Below, one piece after another: positions 1,542 through 19,991 of a stretch of 21,180 bases of DNA (position 1 is its first letter; every line of letters starts with the position of its first letter). The notes beneath the pieces were generated by a model, which had not been told where the DNA came from, did not search any database, and saw nothing but the letters and a program-made list of their open reading frames with translations. The translations under genes were made by a program, and so were the position numbers. The DNA comes from a virus: positions 1 to 21,180 of IMG/VR virus record IMGVR_UViG_3300023179_000589. One strand, 5' to 3'.

Positions 1542-2024
1542 TTAACCGAAGAAACGTTTCGGATCTGCTGGATGTTCTCCCAATTTAACACATTCCGTTA
1601 ACCATTCTGCAGGTATATCTTTTTTTGCAACATGCACAATGCCTAATTTACGAGCATATGCTTCATATGTTGTTAGAGAAGTTTTTGACAAACGTTGATT
1701 TGGATTTTGAAACACCATGCGAATATCAATACCTGGATTTGATTGCAATACATGTTTCATCTTTGTGCGATCTGCAGTAGTCCAACGTCCTTTTGTTTCA
1801 ATGTACATTGTAGCTCCGTTGCGTTTTATGAACACAAAATCTGGTGTATATTTTGCTTTGCGTTCCGGCACCGTATACGATAATGTTTCAGTTTCATAGC
1901 GAAGTTCATATTCAGTTTGTTTGATTCGTTCAGATATTTCAAGTTCTAAACCAGATTTATAACCATGTTTAAGTGCATTAGTTCGTTTAGAATTTGATGT
2001 GCTATGAAAATGATTTCGTTTCAT
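1542..2024 (-). CDS. Endonuclease I, T7 gp3-like Holliday-junction resolvase
   Basis: This 160-residue protein closely follows phage T7 endonuclease I, which cleaves branched DNA such as Holliday junctions and is needed for recombination and for clearing branches before packaging. Visible landmarks in order are S24-G-L-E27, YTPD62F, E76-T-K78-G-x-W, the D-R pair after it, a DIRMVF strand, and IPAEW near residues 137-141. E27, D62, E76 and K78 match the PD-(D/E)XK catalytic set of the T7 enzyme. T7 endonuclease I is 149 residues, so the length fits. ATG 2024 is the start. Its leader (2025-2064) is a 40-nt A/T-rich gap with no clear Shine-Dalgarno. T4 itself uses gp49 (endonuclease VII) for this job, so the gene type is unusual beside gp47/gp6/gp25-like genes. 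Confidence 0.92.
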   Translation of the reverse strand: MKRNHFHSTSNSKRTNALKHGYKSGLELEISERIKQTEYELRYETETLSYTVPERKAKYTPDFVFIKRNGATMYIETKGRWTTADRTKMKHVLQSNPGIDIRMVFQNPNQRLSKTSLTTYEAYARKLGIVHVAKKDIPAEWLTECVKLGEHPADPKRFFG

Positions 2025-2064: not shown

Positions 2065-2871
2065 TTAATTAAAATCAAACCAATCTGACAAATAATCAAA
2101 TACAAACTTTTTAGATAGTATTACATATTTGTTAGTTGATGAATTCCATTTATAATATGTTAAGTTGGCTGTAAATTTACGGCCATTGTATATTGCTTGA
2201 TATAGTGCATTGTAAAATTTTATAAATGCATCCATATTTGCACGTTCTGACTTTGTGCAGTTGTTGTAATATTTTTTTATGTACGGATCATATACTAGTT
2301 GATTGTATGCATTTTTCAATTGTTCTGCAGCACCTTCTTCATCATCGCCGATACCTTTTGAAAGAGGATTCCAACTACGATATTCTGAAAAATATTTTTC
2401 AGGATTTGTAACGATAACATAATACATATCATCTAATGCAGTTTGAAATTTATCATTTATTAGTTTTGCGTTTTTGTAGTTTGATAAATTTGATTGTTTG
2501 TTTATTTTAAAATCAACATGTACGTGAGTTATATGAGGATTTACGCCGTTATATGAGTGCCATCCTTTGCCTTCATTCCATATCAGTCTGTTGTAAATTA
2601 AATTTTCAATATTGTAAAAATATCTGTTTGTATATAAATAATCTGTTAATTGTTGCATTACAGGATCACCTACTCCTTTTTTTCCAAACCAATCGATTGC
2701 ATTACCCGTTGCATGTTGTGACGTTGTATTAGAACCTGCAATTTTTCTATTACTCCAAATTTGTATGGAAGACCATTTATCTGCAGAAAATTGTGATTTA
2801 GATAATATGTCTTTTTTACAAAATTTTGTAAATTCTGTTTGTTCTGTAAGTAAATGTTTTAATACAATCAT
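2065..2871 (-). CDS. M15-like (ARB_07466-type) zinc peptidase with capsid-targeting-like N-terminus
   Basis: This 268-residue protein carries the LAS/M15 metallopeptidase signature S51-x-H53-x-x-G-N-A-I-D60-W, followed by H113-x-x-H116-V-H118-V-D. H53, D60 and H118 are the expected zinc ligands. Family members cut peptidoglycan cross-links, so likely roles are wall digestion at entry or at lysis. About 150 further residues after the catalytic part match nothing I recognise. No signal peptide or membrane segment is visible. The first ten residues, MIVLKHLLTE, resemble a T4 capsid-targeting peptide ending in a gp21-type (L/I)xE cleavage site. That would make it a head-packaged protein rather than a classical endolysin, but this is inference. 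ATG 2871 lies only 10 nt after the TAG that ends the coding-like tail of the upstream gene. Confidence 0.75.
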   Translation of the reverse strand: MIVLKHLLTEQTEFTKFCKKDILSKSQFSADKWSSIQIWSNRKIAGSNTTSQHATGNAIDWFGKKGVGDPVMQQLTDYLYTNRYFYNIENLIYNRLIWNEGKGWHSYNGVNPHITHVHVDFKINKQSNLSNYKNAKLINDKFQTALDDMYYVIVTNPEKYFSEYRSWNPLSKGIGDDEEGAAEQLKNAYNQLVYDPYIKKYYNNCTKSERANMDAFIKFYNALYQAIYNGRKFTANLTYYKWNSSTNKYVILSKKFVFDYLSDWFDFN

Positions 2872-2881
2872 TGTTTTAAGT

Positions 2882-3094
2882 CTATTTTTTACCTATTTTT
2901 TTTTGTATGTCATCAATTTCTGTTGCTGTCATTACTTTCATGTTGTCTGCATTGTTAAACCAAGCATAATCGGCTTTAGTATCTGCTATATTGAATTCAT
3001 CGGTTTTGGCTTTATACCAAATTGTGTTATCTTGTTGACGGTTTAAATACGTAAATCCATCAATATCCCATCGATCATACTGTTTATTATCATA
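2882..3094 (-). other. In-frame coding-like continuation of the MORN-like gene beyond its TGA
   Basis: Directly after the TGA at 3095-3097 the same reading frame stays open for 70 codons and ends at TAG 2882-2884. The translation begins YDNKQYDRWDIDGFTYL and ends with the lysine-rich TEIDDIQKKIGKK. Its composition (W, Y, D, N, Q, K mixed, with a helical charged end) looks like real protein rather than random A/T-rich sequence. Its end lies 10 nt before the next start codon, matching the tight packing elsewhere. It has no convincing start of its own: the first in-frame Met codon lies 22 codons before the stop. It is most simply the C-terminus of the upstream gene, lost by a point mutation, reached by stop read-through, or cut off by a base error. 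Confidence 0.6.
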
Positions 3095-4486
3095 TCATTT
3101 CCAAGTAGATGCAGGTGTTGAACTAGATCCAGCGACGCCGCTACCATCAAATTCACCATTAATAAATTTACCCGCTTCTTTTGTTTTTGTAGAATCTTCC
3201 CATATGGTACCATTAACAAATTTTAAATTTGCATCAATCGTTCCTTCGTAATATGCGTTTTCTTTTTTTGTTGTTGCATCAAATTGTGAAATTTTAAATT
3301 GTTTTGTAGTATCTATGTTGCCACCCGTTTTAAAACCTTGGTATGTACGATACACAGTTTTACCACTACTGGTAAATTGATTGCCAATTGCATAATATTC
3401 GCCATCTTGCAATTTTTTATTTACATCAAAAGTACCTTTTTCATATTGGCCGTCGGATGCTGTTTTTGTTCCATTAGAAAGCCGATACGTATTAGTTGCT
3501 GCATCATACGTCCATGTTCCATCATAAATCCGGCCGTCGGTATATGTCATTTTACCAGTTACTGGATGTCCCTTTGTATTATTCCAAGTTCCGGTAAATG
3601 TATTACCATTTTTTAATACTTTATCAGTGACTTTTTGTATATCATCTTGTACATTATCGGTTTCTTCTTGATCTTCTGGGTCATCTGTTATATCATCCTC
3701 GTATCCGAGGGTGGCTACCGCCGTTACTCCAGGAAACTCATTTTTTGCAAAGTCATACCAAGCTTTCGGAGGCATTGGAAGTTCTGGTTCATTCTTTCTA
3801 TACCATTTCAGATCGCGATTGTCGATTCTATGTTCTATTAAATTTAGCATCGATTTCATGCTCTTAACTGTTGCAGTCCCTACCAAAATACGTAAGTTAT
3901 CTGTATTAAGGGCATCACTTTGATTACGTCCTTGGTGGGTAGCCATATATTTAAGCAGTGTGTTTTTCGTATTCATTACAAGTACAGTAACGCGATATCG
4001 TTCACCTAGTTGTTTGACATTTCCATGTAGATAGTAATATGCAGATATAAATTCAATCTGATCAGGGTCATCTAAATTCGGAGCATACTCAATATCCGGT
4101 GCTGTTGCATATTTACCAACCGGACCAACATCTTCTTTTTTACTTTTTGGATCACCTCCTGACACATTACATGCTGCTTCCACAGCTTCGGATAATCTTG
4201 ATTCTGGTAATCGTTTTGTAACAACTGCAAATACATGATCCGCACCACATTTTTTTGCTAATTCAAACTCTTCTTTCTTAGTTCTTACTATTTTAGATAA
4301 ACCTTCTGTTAATAGTGTTTTCTTGATAATGTGTTCTAAAATTGCACCGGGTTTAAATTTAGTTGTTATTTTGTTTTGTTGTGACGGTGGTATTAATGCA
4401 TGTTTAATAATATTTTCCAACAATGCATCTTGTTGACTTCGTTTTAACATCAATTGCCGGATAGCAGCTTCTATTCGATTACTCAT
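3095..4486 (-). CDS. Virion-associated protein with MORN-like repeats, ending at an in-frame TGA
   Basis: The product is 463 residues from ATG 4486. That start is preceded by AAAAAAGGA and a 4-nt spacer, and is preferred over an in-frame TTG at 4510 that would overlap the kinase gene. The N-terminal 65 residues are helical and carry three (L/I)xE sites (E24, E51, E61), the last in KKTLLTEG. An acidic linker (about 260-285) follows. Residues about 293-450 form imperfect Gly/Tyr/Thr/Trp-rich beta repeats such as FTGTWNNTKG, YDGTWTYD, YYEGTID and GKFINGEFDG, resembling MORN motifs. The middle (about 85-260) is unrecognised. It is the only gene here ending in TGA; the others whose end is in the window end in TAA, or TAG for one. 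The frame continues for 70 codons, so this may be a truncated form of a 534-residue protein. Function is unknown. Confidence 0.62.
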   Translation of the reverse strand: MSNRIEAAIRQLMLKRSQQDALLENIIKHALIPPSQQNKITTKFKPGAILEHIIKKTLLTEGLSKIVRTKKEEFELAKKCGADHVFAVVTKRLPESRLSEAVEAACNVSGGDPKSKKEDVGPVGKYATAPDIEYAPNLDDPDQIEFISAYYYLHGNVKQLGERYRVTVLVMNTKNTLLKYMATHQGRNQSDALNTDNLRILVGTATVKSMKSMLNLIEHRIDNRDLKWYRKNEPELPMPPKAWYDFAKNEFPGVTAVATLGYEDDITDDPEDQEETDNVQDDIQKVTDKVLKNGNTFTGTWNNTKGHPVTGKMTYTDGRIYDGTWTYDAATNTYRLSNGTKTASDGQYEKGTFDVNKKLQDGEYYAIGNQFTSSGKTVYRTYQGFKTGGNIDTTKQFKISQFDATTKKENAYYEGTIDANLKFVNGTIWEDSTKTKEAGKFINGEFDGSGVAGSSSTPASTWK

Positions 4487-4503: not shown

Positions 4504-5046
4504 TTACCAATCAATCATTACTAATTTGTTGTTCCAAACCATAATGTTATCAGTTTTAAAATCTAAATCCAAATCTAAATTAGAAATTCCTGTTTTTTGT
4601 ACATCTCGTTGCAATGCCCGTAAAAAATTAACAAAACGAACATCTGTATTGCGAGCACCATCGGCATCTAAATAATCAAAAATAGAAACTTCCCCACCTT
4701 CACTACGCGCGTAATTTTTATATTTTTCAACAAATTGATCAATATTGTCACGTTGCATTCCTGATAAATCCGATGCTTTTGCCATAACGTACATGTTGTT
4801 ACCATCAACATAATATACAGGAATAAACGTTGAAAATTCTGAATATCTATCAACAATTAGTTCTGCAACTTGATATTCATCTTGTTCCGTTGTTATTTTA
4901 AACAATTTATCTTCACCATCAATTTCATACACACGACCATTATCTCCTTGCCCAAACAATCTAAATTGTTTGCTACGTATTTTTTTCAAAATGCGCTGCA
5001 AATCATCATCAGTCATTTCATGAATAAGTTGTTTCAATCGAATCAT
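4504..5046 (-). CDS. Minimal protein-kinase-fold protein with capsid-targeting-like N-terminus
   Basis: This 180-residue protein shows kinase-fold landmarks: a glycine loop G32-Q-G34-D-N-G37-R-V-Y, the ATP-anchoring lysine K50 (KLFKIT), a candidate helix-C glutamate E62, a catalytic loop D162-F-K-T-D-N167-I-M, and I178-D179-W180 in place of DFG. IDW occurs in aminoglycoside-phosphotransferase-like kinases. The protein stops at this metal-binding motif, so the activation segment and most C-lobe helices are missing. Either it is a minimal kinase or a remnant with a binding role. The N-terminus MIRLKQLIHE has the same form as that of the peptidase at 2065-2871 and ends in IxE. ATG 5046 follows AAAGGA with good spacing. 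Its last codons overlap an alternative TTG start of the next gene. The substrate is unknown; phage kinases such as T7 gp0.7 modify host proteins. Confidence 0.6.
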   Translation of the reverse strand: MIRLKQLIHEMTDDDLQRILKKIRSKQFRLFGQGDNGRVYEIDGEDKLFKITTEQDEYQVAELIVDRYSEFSTFIPVYYVDGNNMYVMAKASDLSGMQRDNIDQFVEKYKNYARSEGGEVSIFDYLDADGARNTDVRFVNFLRALQRDVQKTGISNLDLDLDFKTDNIMVWNNKLVMIDW

Positions 5047-5048
5047 TA

Positions 5049-6629
5049 TTATCCTTTAGGCAAAACATTGGCATCTAAATCTAATCGTATCAAAAAATTC
5101 ATATCAACATCGCTGCGTTTACGTACGGGTTGTGCTAATTTTGCAATTGCTACCATTTGTCCGGCATCATTATACAATCCAATTGTTGTGATATACGGAG
5201 AAAATGCACTACTAGTTGCAAATGTACGATACGTAGAATCATCATCTGCTGTCAATGTTATGTTAGTAGACATATTAAAATCGCCAGCATCTAATTTTGT
5301 TACAACATTTAATTCATAAATTGTAACAGTGCTTCTATAAGATGCAGTAAATGGTGTTAATAATAAATCATTGATTCGATAATCTGCAGATGAAAAAACA
5401 ATGATTCCATGTTTTGCAAAAACGTTTCCTACATATGGTGTTTGCAATGCAGTTCCACCCTCACTACGGTCCGATAACGCACTTATCTGCGACCCGGATA
5501 ACGCGTTATTAAAGATTCTTATTTCATCTAAATAACCTTGTAGATTCAAACTATAGGGGCTAAAACCACCAATTTTTAATGAGTCTTTGTTATCAATTCT
5601 GGAAGATGCCGTTAACGGCGAATTATAAACTCCTAATAACGTGCTAGATGCAGATGAATGTAATACGCCATTAACATACATTTGCAATGAACTTCCTGTT
5701 TTTTGGCAAACAACATGTGTCCAACTTGATGTAACATATGTAGACGAAGTAATTGTTGTTTTGTATGATGTACTTCCTTGTGTCGTAAATACAAGTTGAT
5801 TGCTACCACTCAATTCGATGCGAAATGGAAATGTAGGTGTCGTGCTTTGTGATGCTTTTGTTGCAATTAATTGATTTGCAGAAGTAGTATTGCCGCCGCT
5901 AATAAAAAACGATACAGCATAATCATGATCTCGGTCATACAATCCATTTAATTCAGATTCAATATATCCAGATCCTGAAAAATATGCAGCCATTCCCAAT
6001 GCACGTTGTTGTCCAGACGTTGTAACAATACCCGGTACATATGTAACGCCCGAGCTAATATATGTTGTTCTAGATGCATCAAAATATTCATTGAAACCTT
6101 CATACCATTTTGCATCAGGAATAATTAAACTGGTATTGTATGCTGAATCAATAATATTTCCATACCGATCACCATAAAATGATCCAGACACCGATGACGT
6201 AAATACGAATGATGCAGGTTTTATTCCTTCGCCAATTCGTACTTGTGGTATTGATAAAATAGAAGCAGTTTGAAACAATGCTTTTTTTGTGCGTATTAAA
6301 TTGGTAGGTCCATATGTTTTTGCAGGATCAGCTTTGTGTTTATAATATAAATGATTTACAGAAAAATACGTAACACTTTGTAAACTGTCATCTACGTTCT
6401 TTGCATCATTAAATGTTAATTCACTACCCAAAGCAGGTAACACTTCAATATCTGTATATATTCCTTGTAAAGGCAATGCGCTTGAAGTAGCACTACCTGA
6501 ATATATAGTCCAAGATTTATAAGCAGGAAATGGTGTAATTGCTACATCGGACATATCAATTTTTTTAAAAACCGATGGATATGTTCCTTTGTATGCGTCT
6601 TCTTGTTCTTGAATTTTTGATTGTGCCAT
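5049..6629 (-). CDS. Virion structural protein with LamG-like domain and conserved phage C-terminal domain
   Basis: This is a 526-residue, Ser/Thr/Gly-rich protein. Residues about 213-387 fit a laminin-G/concanavalin-like jelly roll: an AAYFSGSGYIE entry strand, DYAVSFFI, SSWTHVVCQK, LQMYVNGVLHS, LKIGG and the closing GYLDEIRIFNNALS. Such domains bind glycans or other surface ligands. Residues about 400-520 form a second domain with KLDAGDFNMSTN and SPYITTIGLYNDAGQMVAIA. The protein at 6688-7995 has a related version, so the two are paralogous at that end. The N-terminal 200 residues are unrecognised. The ATG at 6629 is preceded by CAGGG inside a hairpin (6635-6673) that also encloses the putative late promoter, so its expression may depend on which transcript is made. 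It ends 2 nt before the kinase gene. Likely a tail, fibre-base or baseplate surface component. Confidence 0.68.
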   Translation of the reverse strand: MAQSKIQEQEDAYKGTYPSVFKKIDMSDVAITPFPAYKSWTIYSGSATSSALPLQGIYTDIEVLPALGSELTFNDAKNVDDSLQSVTYFSVNHLYYKHKADPAKTYGPTNLIRTKKALFQTASILSIPQVRIGEGIKPASFVFTSSVSGSFYGDRYGNIIDSAYNTSLIIPDAKWYEGFNEYFDASRTTYISSGVTYVPGIVTTSGQQRALGMAAYFSGSGYIESELNGLYDRDHDYAVSFFISGGNTTSANQLIATKASQSTTPTFPFRIELSGSNQLVFTTQGSTSYKTTITSSTYVTSSWTHVVCQKTGSSLQMYVNGVLHSSASSTLLGVYNSPLTASSRIDNKDSLKIGGFSPYSLNLQGYLDEIRIFNNALSGSQISALSDRSEGGTALQTPYVGNVFAKHGIIVFSSADYRINDLLLTPFTASYRSTVTIYELNVVTKLDAGDFNMSTNITLTADDDSTYRTFATSSAFSPYITTIGLYNDAGQMVAIAKLAQPVRKRSDVDMNFLIRLDLDANVLPKG

Positions 6630-6634
6630 ATAGT

Positions 6635-6673
6635 AAAAACCCTGCTACATTTAATATAAATATAACAGGGTTT
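6635..6673 (-). promoter_or_regulatory. Hairpin sequestering a Shine-Dalgarno, with a putative late promoter in its loop (also terminator-like)
   Basis: Perfect 8-bp arms, AAACCCTG (minus strand, 6673-6666) and CAGGGTTT (6644-6637), enclose a 21-nt loop holding the 14-mer at 6650-6663. The right arm contains the AGGG Shine-Dalgarno of the gene at 6629. A run of five T (6639-6635) overlaps the arm's end, so a transcript entering from 6688-7995 could terminate or hide the ribosome site. A transcript started in the loop lacks the left arm and leaves the site free. Confidence 0.6.
6650..6663 (-). promoter_or_regulatory. Putative late promoter element, ATATTTATATTAAA
   Basis: One of four copies of the asymmetric 14-mer found in all gaps of 27 nt or more in the virion block. 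It lies 20 nt before ATG 6629 and is identical to the copy at 8661-8674. Its core is the reverse complement of the T4 late element TATAAATA, so the orientation of any promoter is uncertain. Confidence 0.5.
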
Positions 6674-6687
6674 AAATCAGTGTAATT

Positions 6688-7995
6688 TTAAAAATCTAAT
6701 TTGACTCGTATAAGAGCTTCTCGTTGAAATGATTTCAATAACGGTTTAGAAAGTTTCGCTACTGCTAACAATTGTTGACTATCATTGTACAATCCTACCG
6801 TAGTAATATATGTTTTAGGATCACCAACAAATGTTGATTGTGCTAATTGACCAACGCTTCCCGTTACATATGATGGATTATTTGAAAAATTATATTCTGC
6901 ATTTTTAATTCTTACAAAATAATGTGTACTAGTAACTTTTTCAGAATTCCTTGCAATAAATCCATATGGGTCAGAAGTTGTAGGATCAGTAAATTTTCCA
7001 GAGCCAGATATTGAATGATACAACACAAAATGATTGTTTCCTTCAGAACTTGAACCAGTATTTGTTGCAAATCCTAATTGTTGATCAAGCATCTTGCCAT
7101 CTAAAATCAATGTACCATAATCTGGATATGCTAATCCATAATACGTTGGTGCCGTTGGTTTATAAACTCCCGAATTAATAGATCCAGAAACAATATTATA
7201 AATTTTGCCCGAATCGCCAATTTTAGGTGATGCTAAAGAAGAATCATCAATAAGTGTTACTATACTAGAAGTTGCATGCAATGTTACAGAACCAGTTGCA
7301 TTTGTAGCTCTATTTGCAACGCGTTGCAATGGAATTTCAAAATTGCCTGCATCTAAACGTTCTTTCATTCTGTTACGTTTAAAGTTTACAACGTAAATAT
7401 AATCTGTACTGCCAGATCCTGCTGTTGTAAACCGCGTATCAGTTGGTGGCAATAAAAGTTGACGATATTGAGAATAAACAGCTTTTGATGGAGAATCATT
7501 AAGTTGTCCTTGTGAATCGGATCCACTACCCAATGCATGACCAAATGCTAATGCAAATTGTACTGCAGCACCATCTGCTGTAGGTGTGTCTTGATAAACA
7601 TCAACATAATATCTACGTTGTGTGGTAGTTTGTGTTGATGCAGTAAAATATGTAGTTAAACTTGCTAAATTATCACTCCACATACCTCCCGTTACAACTT
7701 CCGTTTGATTGGAAATAATATCATTTGCTGAATCAAATTTTGTATACGTTCTACCATTACGGGCTAATATCTGTGATTGTGCTTGTTCTGCTACAATTTG
7801 ATTAGCAAGTTGTTGAGCTAATTGTCTTACTTGTTCATTTATTGTAGAATCAGTAGCATTAACGTTAGTTGATCCGGCATTAGGAGTAGTTTGAGATGCC
7901 GGAACATTTATAGCAGAAATTCTTGGTACTCCGCCAATTCTAGGTTGTTGTTTTAATTGTGCAATGAATTCATTCATTTTCATATTTTTTTCCAT
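6688..7995 (-). CDS. Virion structural protein, paralogous at its C-terminus to the LamG protein
   Basis: This 435-residue protein has a Gln/Ala-rich N-terminal helix (about 45-80, QLAQQLANQIVAEQAQ) and a long Ser/Thr/Gly-rich body. Its C-terminus contains RLDAGNFEIPL, TYITTVGLYNDSQQLLAVAK and ALIRVKLDF. This end matches the corresponding part of the protein at 5049-6629, pointing to an old duplication of a tail or baseplate surface domain. Function beyond virion structure is not recognisable. ATG 7995 directly abuts the upstream stop codon (TAAATG). A second in-frame ATG at 7983 has a GGA seven to eight bases before it and is a possible true start, removing four residues. The transcript probably ends at, or continues through, the hairpin at 6635-6673. 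Confidence 0.62.
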   Translation of the reverse strand: MEKNMKMNEFIAQLKQQPRIGGVPRISAINVPASQTTPNAGSTNVNATDSTINEQVRQLAQQLANQIVAEQAQSQILARNGRTYTKFDSANDIISNQTEVVTGGMWSDNLASLTTYFTASTQTTTQRRYYVDVYQDTPTADGAAVQFALAFGHALGSGSDSQGQLNDSPSKAVYSQYRQLLLPPTDTRFTTAGSGSTDYIYVVNFKRNRMKERLDAGNFEIPLQRVANRATNATGSVTLHATSSIVTLIDDSSLASPKIGDSGKIYNIVSGSINSGVYKPTAPTYYGLAYPDYGTLILDGKMLDQQLGFATNTGSSSEGNNHFVLYHSISGSGKFTDPTTSDPYGFIARNSEKVTSTHYFVRIKNAEYNFSNNPSYVTGSVGQLAQSTFVGDPKTYITTVGLYNDSQQLLAVAKLSKPLLKSFQREALIRVKLDF

Positions 7996-14324: not shown

Positions 14325-17300
14325 TTATCCTATTTTTTTCACTGTTAATCTAGGTGGTGTATTATAACTAGTAACAGTTGATATAGATGAATTTGACGGA
14401 TTGACCCATACTCGATAATATCCTGGTGCTGAGATATATTCAACAACTATTCCAGTTACGGTTTGATCATTTGTACCCTCAACTGATTTATAATCATTGA
14501 ATAATGATACTAATGAAAATGCGCCGCCGGTACTAGCACCAGTTACTAATTTTATTAATATATCAACATCTGCACCTAATCCGTTCAAATAAACCTGAGA
14601 AATAAATTCATAATATCCAGGTTGTTTTATATAAACCGCTGCAGTAGTTAATCCAGAATTAACTAATTCAAAGAATGATGAAGATGTATTATAATCAGTC
14701 GTATTAAATCTAATGTTATTATCTGTACTATTTGTCAATGTTACGTTGTTGATACTATTTGAAAATCTTGCAACTGGCATACTAAAATTAGATGCTGTAT
14801 ATGCAATTTGTGCTTGTGATGCAAACGATGATGTTCCAAACAATGACCCCGTAAATGAACCAGTTGCACTTAAACTTGCCGTTAACATCATAAACGATGC
14901 AGTTGCAGTTACAATTGAACTTCCAGTAATTGTTATTAAATTTGCAATGCTACTAGAAATAGTACCAAATTGTCCTAATGATCCAGTAATGCTACCACTT
15001 ACATTTCCTGTGACATTGCCACCAATTAAACTGCCAGTAACATCTCCTTTTAATGAACCAGTTATTGAAGTAAAGTCTGCACTAGTTCCAACAACATTAC
15101 CCGTAACATTACCCGTTAAATTACCTACAACTGCCGTAGTAGATATATTAGGAACAGATAACATATTGGTATTAGGATTATATTCAAACCCAGTGTCTGC
15201 TTTAAGATTATTAGGTCCGGTACTATTGTTTGTAAATACTATAAACCGATTTGCATTTGTTGAATCTAATTGTATTTGAGCATTTTCGGCATTAGTTGCA
15301 TACGATGCCGTTCCATTTAACGATCCAGATAATGATCCAGTAAATAATCCATTAATTGATAATGTACTATTTGGGGTTGCTATTGAACTACTAAATGATT
15401 GCAATCCAGTAATTCTAGTTGAAAAAGAAGCCGAATCTAATGGATAATTAACGGTATTCAATGCCAAACTAGCTGAAAATGAAGCAGAATTAATTAAATA
15501 CGAAGTATAATTTGCAGCAATACTAGAACTATTTGCGACGATGCTCGATGAAAATGAAGCTGATACATTTAAGAAGCTACCACTCAACGTGGCAATGCTT
15601 GCACTATTAATTATTATGTTTGCAGAAAATGATGAAGAATTGGTTAAAAAACTTCCACTCAAAGTGGCAATGCTTGAACTATTTGCGACGATGCTCGATG
15701 AAAATGAAGCAGAATTAATTAAATACGAAGTATAATTTGCAGCAATACTAGAACTATTTGCGACGATGCTCGATGAAAATGATGCTGAATCAATTAAATA
15801 CGAAGCATAATTTGCAGCAATGCTTGCCGAAAATGATGCTGAATTTAATAAATAATTGTTTTGGTTTGCGGCAATGCTTGATGAAAATGATGCTGAATCA
15901 ATTAAATACGAAGCATAATTTGCAGCAATGCTTGCCGAAAATGATGCTGAATTTAATAAATAATTGTTTTGGTTTGCGGCAATGCTTGCACTATTTGCAG
16001 CAATGCTTGCTGAAAATGATGCTGAATTTAATAAATAATTGTTTTGGTTTACAACAATACTAGAACTATTTGCAGCAATACTTGCTGAAAATGATGCTGA
16101 ATTAATTAGATATGAAGTTTGATTTGCTGCAATACTAGAACTATTTGCTGCAATACTAGAACTAAATGAAGCTAAATTTGCAAGATATACACTACTTGTC
16201 CATGCTGTAAAAGAAGCCGTTGTTAAAAACTCCGGAGTTATTGATATTGTTAATGTTTTTGTTGATGGGTTTGTTGTTAATGCAATATCATTTCCTGCAG
16301 TTAATGTAATAGTATCTGTTGCATTACTAGCAACAATAGCACTTTGTCCGGTTACTGCAAACGTTGTAAATGAACTACCCGAATAAACACCAGATCCAGA
16401 TACATTTCCATATAATGCTGCAGACGCAGTATAATATAATTGTCCAGTTCCTGTATCAATTACAACTACATTATTTAAATTTTGTTGCGATGTTGCAGGA
16501 ACAAATAAACTATTAGTAACTGTTAAATTGCCATTAATGTTTTGATTTCCTAATACATTAACAGAACCCGTAATATGTACATCGCCAACTTCAAATCTGT
16601 GACCGGCTAAACCAGCAATATATGAAATTCCCGAATTTGGAATAGTTTCTTCAATATGATTGGTAAACAAACTATATCCCGAATTAACTTCTATATAACC
16701 GTTAACGAATTGATTACCTACAAATGTATTAGATCCCGTTGTTGCAACTGAACCACTAAATACTTCTAATGCAGTTGATCTATTAGCAAATGATGCTGAA
16801 TTATTTTGGTATGATGCAGTGAATGATGTGAATTGTGTTTCGCTTGCATAATACGTATCTAAACTAGAACTAAAAGATTCTAATGCCGTAATTCTTGAGG
16901 AATTAGATGCAGAAACATTTAAGAAACTACCACTTAACGTAGCAATGCTTGCACTATTAATTATTATGTTTGCAGCAAATGATGCTGAGTTTGTTACGAG
17001 ATTAGCAATTCCGGAACTAAATGATGCTGATGTTGATAAATAACTAGATGATAATGTTGCAATGCTAGAACTATTAATAATGATTTTAGAAGCAAATGAT
17101 GCAGAATCAATTATATAATTGTTTTGATTTGTAACAATACTAGAACTAAATGAAGCTGAATCAATTAAATATGAAGTTTGGTTTGCTGCAATGCTTGAAC
17201 TATTTGCGGTAATTCTAGAAGAAAATGATGCCGAATCAATTAAATATGATCCACTTAAAGTAGCAATGCTTGAACTATTTGCGGTAATTCTAGAAGAAAA

Positions 17301-17621
17301 TGATGCCGAATCTACATTGTAAGTAAACGGACTTCCGGTTATCTCATAATTAGTACCAACTGTATTTATAATGATATTTGGCCCGGCAACTAAACTTACA
17401 TATGATGCAGTTATTGAATGATTTGACCAACTTGAAGTTCCTAAAAGGCTAGCAGTTACTCCTTGAGTAACAATTAGTGATCCGGTAATTTTCATTGAAC
17501 CAGTTAATTGTACCGATTCAGTAATTGCACCGGTAAATATATCATATAAATCAGATACAAAACTTGCTGAAATTAAACCGCCAGCAACAATTTGAGCACG
17601 ATTTGATGATAGTTTGCCCAT
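14325..17621 (-). CDS. Long repeat-rich tail-fibre protein (1098 aa)
   Basis: This protein is dominated by Ser/Ala/Asn/Gly-rich repeats. An N-terminal head (1-100) contains SMKITGSLIVTQGVTASLLG. Two blocks (about 103-285 and 470-750) repeat the short unit SASFSSSIAANSSSIA with N/Q-x-x-YL linkers, about twenty times in all. A GSLTG/VTGN-type beta segment (about 830-890) follows, and a compact C-terminal domain (about 950-1098) contains PGYYEFISQVYLNG, compatible with a C1q/TNF-like receptor-binding jelly roll. Hydrophobic spacing in the repeats suits a fibrous trimer. It would be the host-recognition fibre or a baseplate-mounted fibre. ATG 17621 has AAGGA nine nt upstream, and the 14-mer at 17636-17649 lies directly before that. 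DNA-level repeats (15475-15988) imply recent unit duplication. A chaperone gene is not seen nearby. Confidence 0.75.
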   Translation of the reverse strand: MGKLSSNRAQIVAGGLISASFVSDLYDIFTGAITESVQLTGSMKITGSLIVTQGVTASLLGTSSWSNHSITASYVSLVAGPNIIINTVGTNYEITGSPFTYNVDSASFSSRITANSSSIATLSGSYLIDSASFSSRITANSSSIAANQTSYLIDSASFSSSIVTNQNNYIIDSASFASKIIINSSSIATLSSSYLSTSASFSSGIANLVTNSASFAANIIINSASIATLSGSFLNVSASNSSRITALESFSSSLDTYYASETQFTSFTASYQNNSASFANRSTALEVFSGSVATTGSNTFVGNQFVNGYIEVNSGYSLFTNHIEETIPNSGISYIAGLAGHRFEVGDVHITGSVNVLGNQNINGNLTVTNSLFVPATSQQNLNNVVVIDTGTGQLYYTASAALYGNVSGSGVYSGSSFTTFAVTGQSAIVASNATDTITLTAGNDIALTTNPSTKTLTISITPEFLTTASFTAWTSSVYLANLASFSSSIAANSSSIAANQTSYLINSASFSASIAANSSSIVVNQNNYLLNSASFSASIAANSASIAANQNNYLLNSASFSASIAANYASYLIDSASFSSSIAANQNNYLLNSASFSASIAANYASYLIDSASFSSSIVANSSSIAANYTSYLINSASFSSSIVANSSSIATLSGSFLTNSSSFSANIIINSASIATLSGSFLNVSASFSSSIVANSSSIAANYTSYLINSASFSASLALNTVNYPLDSASFSTRITGLQSFSSSIATPNSTLSINGLFTGSLSGSLNGTASYATNAENAQIQLDSTNANRFIVFTNNSTGPNNLKADTGFEYNPNTNMLSVPNISTTAVVGNLTGNVTGNVVGTSADFTSITGSLKGDVTGSLIGGNVTGNVSGSITGSLGQFGTISSSIANLITITGSSIVTATASFMMLTASLSATGSFTGSLFGTSSFASQAQIAYTASNFSMPVARFSNSINNVTLTNSTDNNIRFNTTDYNTSSSFFELVNSGLTTAAVYIKQPGYYEFISQVYLNGLGADVDILIKLVTGASTGGAFSLVSLFNDYKSVEGTNDQTVTGIVVEYISAPGYYRVWVNPSNSSISTVTSYNTPPRLTVKKIG
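15475..15557. repeat. Perfect 83-nt direct repeat, copy 1 (copy 2 at 15700-15782)
   Basis: Starts gaaaatgaagcagaattaat and is identical in both copies at a 225-nt (75-codon) offset, including third-codon positions. This is much closer than the protein repeat requires and indicates recent copying or gene conversion. Confidence 0.85.
15700..15782. repeat. Perfect 83-nt direct repeat, copy 2
   Basis: Second copy of the 83-nt element at 15475-15557. Confidence 0.85.
15781..15988. repeat. Tandem 108-nt repeat, 100 nt identical in the two adjacent copies
   Basis: Copy 1 starts at 15781 and copy 2 at 15889; the first 100 nt of each are identical, starting gatgctgaatcaattaaata. The period is 36 codons. 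Identity extends upstream of both copies with a single mismatch. Confidence 0.88.
16770..17315. repeat. Coding repeat block 1 of the fibre gene
   Basis: About nine diverged copies of the SASFSS.I unit (residues about 103-285), more degenerate than block 2 and separated from it by about 190 non-repeat residues. Confidence 0.7.
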
Positions 17622-17653: not shown

Positions 17654-19534
17654 TTAGTAATTAATTACACGTCCTTTTATATCTTTATCTGGAAACTTAA
17701 TTTCAAAAATACTAGGATCTAACGAAGGATAAATAACTCCATTTTTTGTAGCTGAAGGCAGATCATATATATTGCCTGAATAATTTTGTGAAGTATCATA
17801 TAAATTATTAAATGTTACATTTACTACAGATTGTACTCCTTTGATATTTCCTAATAAATTTGTAACATCTGATTTCATAATTGGTTGATTAATTTGCCAG
17901 CGATCAATATTGAAATATGATTTAACAGCATCAATACATTTTAATAAAACTTCATTGCTATTATAATTAGATAACACTGTTATTTCAAATTGTACGCCAA
18001 TATTAATTACAAATGCATCTTTAATGTTTATTGCATCAGTTAATATACGATAATAATTTAAATAATTTTTTAAATTTTCTTTAACTGCCTGATTAAGTGC
18101 AATAAGTTGTTTGTTTTGATTGAATCCTAAAATATACAAATTCATTGCCAATGGATTTGCAATTTTAGTTTGTTCAAATTCTTGTTGTGAAATTTGATCA
18201 TCAGGAACAATATATGCTTTTGCAACACTACCAAATTTTGCCGGCATTGAATAAACACGAATAATATAATCATCTCGCGTTACTAAACGATTTTGTGTAG
18301 CAAAATTTCCCAATGCATTGTTTTTAATGTCTTCTAATGTATCTGCAGTTTTAGCCCCAACAGCTGGATTAACATTTGTTACTGCTACTGTGGATTTGAT
18401 AAATGTAGTTGTTCCTACATTAATATTAGAATTGATATCATCTGTAAATTGTATAGATACTATATTAGTTAATACACCTGCAGGTACATTATCAACAATA
18501 CCATTTCCAACCGTATATGTAACAGTTAGTGTGGTATTTGATGGTGCTTGACCATATGTTTTAGTATACAAAAAATTTGATGGATCAATATTTACATCTA
18601 TATTTTGGCGCAAAGCTGCCAATCCATTTCCTACATTAGTTGGATTTGGAATAATTTCTTGATCATTATTATCAGAAATACCAGAACCAAATTGCATTTC
18701 TAAACGATTATCGCTACGTAAACGCGTAACAAATCGTTTTGCAGTTTTACGCAATTTTAATAAACTAGGAGAACCTGATCGATATTGTGATAATTCTGGA
18801 TCATTTTCTGCTAAATTTGGAACTTCTTCAAAAATAGTATCTTGTGCTAAGTATGGAACTTCATGCCATTTATCACCATCAGATTCCGTAACAGAAATAA
18901 TTTCAATAATGTTTGATTCTGGTAAAACTACTTTATCATATGCAATAGCGTTAGTAAATGTAAATGATGTAGTTTTTACATCTCCAGATACTGCCATTAC
19001 TTGTTTTTTCAACAAATAATAAGTTGGTAATTTTGTAGTTGGATCAGATTCATATATTGTTATTTCGGTTGTATTAATTGACGATGAAAAAGAAAAATCA
19101 ATTGAATCCAATGTTCTAAAAATAGATGCACCATTGTTTTGTTGAACTCGCATACCTGGTTTGATTGATAATGCATAATCAAAATCTGGACGTACGTTTA
19201 CACCAGTGCCAACAGCAGGAAGTAATTGATACACATCCAATGTAACGTATGCAGGTACAACATTTTTTGGTTGATATCCTAAATTTTTTGCAATATCAAA
19301 TATATTGGATCGTTCAGATGCTTGATCTAATAATGATTCTCGCAAATTAACATCCATGTAATATGATAAAACATCACCTACATATGCTGACATTTCTAAA
19401 AACAAAGAACCAGGTGCTGATTGATTAAAATCAGTGTATGTTGTAGGAAAATACTGTTGTGCAAAATCAATTAAATTTTTTCTAAATTGATTAAAATCTT
19501 TGCCTAAATATGAAATATCTTTTTTTGTTTCCAT
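17654..19534 (-). CDS. 6: Baseplate wedge protein gp6-like (baseplate J family)
   Basis: This 626-residue protein has the N-terminal signature of T4-type gp6: YLGKDFNQFRKNLIDFAQQY, then NQSAPGSLFLEMSAYVGDVL ending SYYMDVN (37-63), and ERSNIFDIAKNLGYQPK. T4 gp6 is 660 residues. In T4, gp6 dimers form the continuous inner ring of the baseplate wedge, which rearranges when the sheath contracts. The C-terminal half is beta-rich and ends near IFEIKFPDKDIKGRVINY. I place the start at ATG 19534, not at an in-frame GTG 45 nt further upstream, because TAAGGAA sits 4 nt before this ATG and overlaps the gp25 stop codon. It lies directly downstream of gp25, the usual neighbour in contractile-tail baseplates. 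The gene symbol is by analogy with T4. Confidence 0.85.
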   Translation of the reverse strand: METKKDISYLGKDFNQFRKNLIDFAQQYFPTTYTDFNQSAPGSLFLEMSAYVGDVLSYYMDVNLRESLLDQASERSNIFDIAKNLGYQPKNVVPAYVTLDVYQLLPAVGTGVNVRPDFDYALSIKPGMRVQQNNGASIFRTLDSIDFSFSSSINTTEITIYESDPTTKLPTYYLLKKQVMAVSGDVKTTSFTFTNAIAYDKVVLPESNIIEIISVTESDGDKWHEVPYLAQDTIFEEVPNLAENDPELSQYRSGSPSLLKLRKTAKRFVTRLRSDNRLEMQFGSGISDNNDQEIIPNPTNVGNGLAALRQNIDVNIDPSNFLYTKTYGQAPSNTTLTVTYTVGNGIVDNVPAGVLTNIVSIQFTDDINSNINVGTTTFIKSTVAVTNVNPAVGAKTADTLEDIKNNALGNFATQNRLVTRDDYIIRVYSMPAKFGSVAKAYIVPDDQISQQEFEQTKIANPLAMNLYILGFNQNKQLIALNQAVKENLKNYLNYYRILTDAINIKDAFVINIGVQFEITVLSNYNSNEVLLKCIDAVKSYFNIDRWQINQPIMKSDVTNLLGNIKGVQSVVNVTFNNLYDTSQNYSGNIYDLPSATKNGVIYPSLDPSIFEIKFPDKDIKGRVINY

Positions 19535-19538
19535 GTTT

Positions 19539-19544
19539 TCCTTA
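19539..19544 (-). promoter_or_regulatory. Shine-Dalgarno of gp6 overlapping the gp25 stop
   Basis: AAGGAA on the minus strand, 4 nt before ATG 19534. It shares bases with the TAA stop of the gp25 gene (19544-19542), so gp6 translation is probably coupled to that of gp25, and this excludes the longer GTG start. Confidence 0.7.
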
Positions 19545-19991
19545 AGGCGTAATTGCCAACGTTCCATTTTGATTAACACCTAATGTTAATGTTTTTTCCT
19601 GAGCATCATATGTTGGTCTGAATGTTATTGTAACGATAACATCGTAAATTAAATTAGGATCATCGTCTGTTGTTTGTACATCAATGTTTATTAATTCAAT
19701 ATCAGGTAACCATTGATTAATTGGAGCTGTTATATAGTCAACAATATCTTGTTTTATTTCAGATGTATTTGGTTGAAATATAATTTTTAATAAATCTGTA
19801 CCAAATGTTGGCAACATAATACGTTCGCCTTTTCTTGTTAATAACAATGTTTTTAACTTAGCAAATTCCTGTTCAATACTAGTATATGTTGAATCAAATA
19901 CAGCAACGCCGTTAGCTCCCAACGAAACACCTAACGTAGATACATTGGTTGTTCGAATAACATCAGCAGCAACAACAACTTGATACCCCAT
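19542..19991 (-). CDS. 25: Baseplate wedge protein gp25-like
   Basis: This 149-residue protein matches the gp25/TssE-type family. Residues 39-74 read IEQEFAKLKTLLLTRKGERI followed by MLPTFGTDLLKIIF, the conserved core of gp25 (T4 gp25 is 132 residues). A later IELINIDVQTTDDDP and VIVTITFRP complete the typical beta sheet. gp25 joins the gp6-gp7 core of the baseplate wedge to the sheath and helps start sheath polymerisation. Its start overlaps the upstream stop by 1 nt (TAATG), with AAAGG six nt upstream. The N-terminal 35 residues are a variable extension. Position directly before gp6 supports the call. The gene symbol is by analogy with T4. Confidence 0.88.
   Translation of the reverse strand: MGYQVVVAADVIRTTNVSTLGVSLGANGVAVFDSTYTSIEQEFAKLKTLLLTRKGERIMLPTFGTDLLKIIFQPNTSEIKQDIVDYITAPINQWLPDIELINIDVQTTDDDPNLIYDVIVTITFRPTYDAQEKTLTLGVNQNGTLAITP

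Follow-up and report, generated by a model that had tools for sequence, protein, structure and literature searches.

Two described arrangements place an open, coding-like frame behind a single stop codon. Nonsense-truncated phage genes may retain a leftover in-frame 3′ tail, and the RNA phages encode coat extensions of the Qβ A1 type. A third system, the internal head proteins of phage T4 (IPI–IPIII and Alt), bears on the block of genes treated below; the capsid-targeting propeptide of IPIII is processed at residue 10 (PMC9026906). Here, we compare these systems with a locus from an uncultured virus of bacteria, in which a gene is interrupted by one stop codon at the onset of its last domain. 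The window, i.e. the whole stretch of DNA that was analysed, is 21,180 nucleotides of the IMG/VR record IMGVR_UViG_3300023179_000589. Baseplate wedge families match positions 19542–19991 and 17654–19579, suggesting that the phage is probably contractile-tailed. In a 1098-aa structural protein (14325–17621), an S/A-rich motif (SASFSSSIAANSSSIA) recurs in many degenerate versions.

The interrupted gene and its in-frame tail

The interrupted gene lies on the minus strand (3095..4486) and has 463 codons. It is terminated by a TGA (3095–3097, minus strand), which is preceded by AAA and followed by T (U at position +4). As described in a first-pass annotation of the window, the frame remains open for 70 further codons (2885–3094, minus strand) and closes at a TAG (2882–2884), 10 nt ahead of the ATG at 2871 with which the downstream gene begins. 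The annotation also considered the tail to be protein-like, and coding statistics bear this out. In frame, the tail reaches +0.33 bits/codon (genes, 0.46 ± 0.15), against −0.07 to −0.89 bits/codon in the other five frames; 2.8% of off-frame 70-codon stretches reach the in-frame score. Under a dinucleotide Markov model, 70 codons without a stop have a probability of 0.0066, and the tail frame contains neither a second stop nor a frameshift. The TGA gene is the only one of 16 window genes with an in-frame extension that bridges its intergenic gap (70 codons, 223-nt gap), and none of 633 distinct genes of relatives has a comparable stop and gap-filling extension. Separate translation of the tail was considered and rejected: there is no usable in-frame start, and the ATG one base past the TGA lies in a different frame and opens just 16 codons. 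The description of the protein as ‘MORN-like’ was made by eye and found no backing in Pfam, where the protein has no MORN match and no family at E ≤ 1; we keep the term for the repeats as a label.

The stop codon itself is unremarkable. It had been singled out as the odd one, and within the window this is correct (14 genes end in TAA, one in TAG, and one in TGA). Across the phage group, though, TGA is a regular stop that ends 110 of the 633 distinct genes of relatives, among them the homologues in five close relatives. Reassignment of UGA (code 4 and similar) was rejected: TGG occurs 60 times in the 16 genes, where no further TGA lies in frame, which argues for the standard code, and TGA is regularly used as a stop in relatives. 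Selenocysteine insertion was likewise rejected, as no stable hairpin of the SECIS type follows the UGA directly.

Tail-less homologues and a C-terminal domain of distant relatives

The closest homologues of the interrupted gene lack the tail. In L002 (66% identical), L003/L004 (69% identical), L006, L012, and L018, the repeat gene lies between the same neighbours and ends shortly past the repeats, and its final TGA overlaps the downstream ATG (ATGA). Relative to these genes, the window has two additions: a Gly/Ser-rich linker, GSGVAGSSSTPAS, upstream of the TGA (3107..3145, minus strand, delimited by alignment) and the tail downstream of it. The hexamer AATGAT occurs at the TGA (3094–3099) and again where the next gene begins (2867–2872); a deletion between the two copies would leave exactly the ATGA-overlap layout of the tail-less relatives. 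Database searches found no uninterrupted close homologue. A direct search with the tail against IMG/VR, genomes, named phages, PDB, PHROGs, and Pfam returned nothing over noise, relatives contain no DNA relics of the tail, and a viral scan with the repeat-region alignment recovered only the known tail-less relatives.

More distant relatives tell a different story. We gathered these through the kinase-like neighbour gene, which gave about 150 loci, many with other versions of the repeat gene. A domain of ∼75 residues is common to 25 segments from these relatives (L029, L071, L072, L074, L079, L084, L099–L105, L108, L115, L116, L121, L122, L126, L128, L134, L140, L014, L021, and L023) and mostly stands directly behind the repeats. 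Its pattern is YPxxW...VY.....D.(aromatic)VY......W....K..F......D...I..LNK. Neither Pfam nor PHROGs gave a credible match to the post-repeat domain in the proteins scanned, and a PDB fold search with models of the window segment and of the family gave no significant match. The domain is undescribed. The first-pass annotation held that homologues all ending at the TGA would count against a split gene and proposed a search for an uninterrupted homologue. The closest homologues indeed end without any tail, whereas the distant relatives carry the ∼75-residue domain after the same repeat region. Because the domain occupies that place in more distant relatives, the tail-less close homologues do not refute the split. 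In a tree of the kinase-like protein, the window stands next to L006 and L002, both tail-less, and domain-bearing, tail-less, and other architectures are intermixed (support mostly weak), suggesting that the C-terminus is often swapped or lost.

The linker and tail of the window resemble this domain. The segment TPASTWK-stop-YDNKQYDRWDIDGFTYLNRQQDNTIWYKAKTDEF...VMTATEIDDIQKKI is collinear with the family in an alignment that crosses the TGA and matches, in order, P, W, Y, D, an aromatic residue, Y, W, and F; inspection by eye shows small residues in many family members where the window has the TGA. Read through the stop, the segment obtains an HMM score that 2–3% of shuffles and 4% of real segments also reach, the real segments including a few probable unrecognised members; with an earlier, smaller, and weaker profile, 10% of controls reached it. 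When added to the family alignment, the segment scores above 698 of 700 real C-termini, all 250 real internal segments, and 99.2% of shuffles. Its score of 7.5 lies below those of nearly all true members (23–103) and above that of the weakest (3.4). AlphaFold2, with the TGA read as Trp, gives a model with a mean pLDDT of 76, although the family alignment used as input biases it. This model has strands at residues 17–21, 24–31, 34–39, and 46–50 and helices at 60–66 and 77–87. When the window is left out, the family model (pLDDT 79) has strands at 11–14, 20–24, 32–37, and 40–45 and helices at 46–52 and 69–78. The order of elements, four strands followed by two helices, is identical in both, the window model being built on the family alignment. 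The TGA is residue 20, inside the predicted first strand (TWK-stop-Y; 3092..3106, minus strand), and the tail would form the remainder of the putative domain. Together, profile and model are suggestive of a divergent copy of the relatives’ C-terminal domain.

Neighbouring genes and the cargo block

The gene upstream (4504..5046, minus strand) encodes a small protein that is kinase-like by eye (GxGxxGxVY and LDFKxDNxMxW...IDW, here GQGDNGRVYEI ... LDFKTDNIMVW...IDW). It has relatives in about 200 IMG/VR stretches and matches none of 50,697 named phage records. The downstream gene (2065..2871, minus strand) is M15-peptidase-like by eye (HxxxxxxD...HxH). It has no SD-like sequence ahead of it and, in tail-less relatives, is coupled to the repeat gene through the ATGA overlap. 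In three other loci (L093, L094, and L095, at 6001–6808), the M15-like gene lies in two overlapping frames of 104 and 176 aa; an intact gene nearly identical to this split one is present in L087–L089. Beyond the M15-like gene, a T7 endonuclease I-like gene (1542..2024, minus strand; Pfam PF05367, E 2.6e-29) marks the border of a variable cargo block, which extends from the kinase-like gene to the endonuclease and whose gene content changes fast.

Proteins of this block, both in the window (4504–5046, 3095–4486, and 2065–2871) and in the matching genes of about 100 loci, almost all begin with a short basic or amphipathic segment that ends in LxE or FE. Typical starts, such as MIRLKQLIHE and MIVLKHLLTE, are ten residues long. 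An [LIF]xE motif falls within residues 6–28 in 86 of 101 distinct cargo proteins and 80 of 82 kinase-like proteins, versus 93 of 331 other ORFs. By analogy with T4, this is probably a block of ejected proteins. Since the starts resemble the capsid-targeting sequence of IPIII, the truncated gene is probably one of a set of head-packaged proteins ejected into the host. In T4, such targeting sequences are cleaved by the prohead protease; no such protease was seen in the 21-kb window.

Origin of the stop codon and comparison with known systems

We consider it probable, though well short of certain, that a recent nonsense mutation created the TGA within a longer gene, which would have had about 533 codons. 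Of the mechanisms listed in the first-pass annotation, a real truncation fits best. The annotation's core reading, a stop that splits a longer gene and a tail that is, or recently was, real protein, gains support from the coding statistics and from the likely homology of linker and tail to the relatives' C-terminal domain; no test made here lent support to read-through, to a UGA suppressor, or to reassignment of the codon. The full frame would run from an N-terminal region through the MORN-like repeats and the Gly/Ser-rich linker into the ∼75-residue C-terminal domain and close at the TAG at 2882. A nonsense mutation would have removed this dispensable domain; as the stop falls within the domain's first beta strand, the product would be a 463-residue protein without it. 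Loss of the domain is probably tolerable, given that the nearest relatives lack it, and we infer that the truncated protein is functional. The nonsense event would be recent, for the tail has acquired no further stop or frameshift. The TAG at 2882 would couple the downstream gene, as the overlapping stop does in tail-less relatives. Because that gene lacks an SD-like sequence of its own, the TGA may reduce its translation as well.

A lone recent nonsense codon in a single record, with no further damage, looks the same as a consensus error. An assembly or consensus error, whereby the phage population would have a sense codon at this place and produce the full-length protein, is the competing account to which we give some, if limited, weight. 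The locus is known from one metagenomic record, the tail is otherwise fully open and coding-like, and with the full frame, the spacing to the downstream gene, which has no SD-like sequence of its own, returns to 10 nt. Against this, all 15 other genes of the window are intact, which indicates good sequence quality in general, and substitution errors are uncommon in assembled consensus sequences. A genuine, old stop followed by the 3′ remnant of another gene, or by an insertion between two genes, is improbable. The AAATGATA at the TGA equals the AAATGATA of tail-less relatives, where it comprises the stop and the next start, but the AAA ahead of the stop is a common codon in an AT-rich phage. 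The two copies of AATGAT, one at the stop and one at the start of the downstream gene, could mark the end of a deletion or insertion. An old stop, however, leaves the linker, which calls for a domain behind it, without purpose; the apparent homology to the domain spans the TGA, and the tail agrees with the gene in frame and direction.

Programmed or leaky read-through, which would add the C-terminal domain to a minor share of the product in the manner of RNA-phage coat extensions, also seems doubtful. UGA is in general the leakiest stop codon, the tail has kept its coding signature and is predicted to be a foldable domain, and one relative of the group encodes a phage tRNA-Trp(CCA). Several observations weigh on the other side. 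The arrangement is not conserved, with close homologues tail-less and no second case in the 633 genes, and no stable hairpin is predicted downstream of the UGA (fold z 0.35 and −0.36). A search for a UGA-suppressor tRNA (anticodon UCA), which the first-pass annotation had raised, found none in the window, itself a genome fragment, or among the tRNA genes of relatives. The base after the UGA is U, a context that reduces read-through in E. coli (PMC5289835). We regard as very improbable the more specific version in which UGA read-through yields two versions of an ejected head protein, the major one stopping past the repeats and the minor one bearing the domain that close relatives have lost.

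The preferred reading, recent truncation, places the split gene beside nonsense-truncated phage genes, with which it shares a single stop, an open coding-like frame, and a lost part that is dispensable in relatives. It differs in being known from a single record rather than across a population. With the Qβ A1 type, it shares a UGA behind which a long coding extension continues in frame; unlike that type, the extension is not conserved in relatives, the +4 base is U, there is no stimulatory hairpin, and the long form is hypothetical. The gene most likely represents a single truncated allele within a phage gene block that changes fast, rather than a special decoding signal, and a lone coding-like tail calls for caution before read-through is invoked.

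Two by-products of the analysis are worth more than the TGA. One is the undescribed C-terminal domain, of which 25 diverse members were collected; the other is the cargo block, where almost all proteins have T4-style capsid-targeting starts. Like the T4 internal head proteins, this block shows starts of ∼10 residues that end in LxE in neighbouring genes, as in the IPIII propeptide (PMC9026906), and, as in T4, it is fast-changing with varying gene content. In contrast to the T4 case, the relation is a likeness of the starts, any sequence homology would be hypothetical, and packaging is predicted. The block suggests a large and unexplored set of phage-injected proteins.
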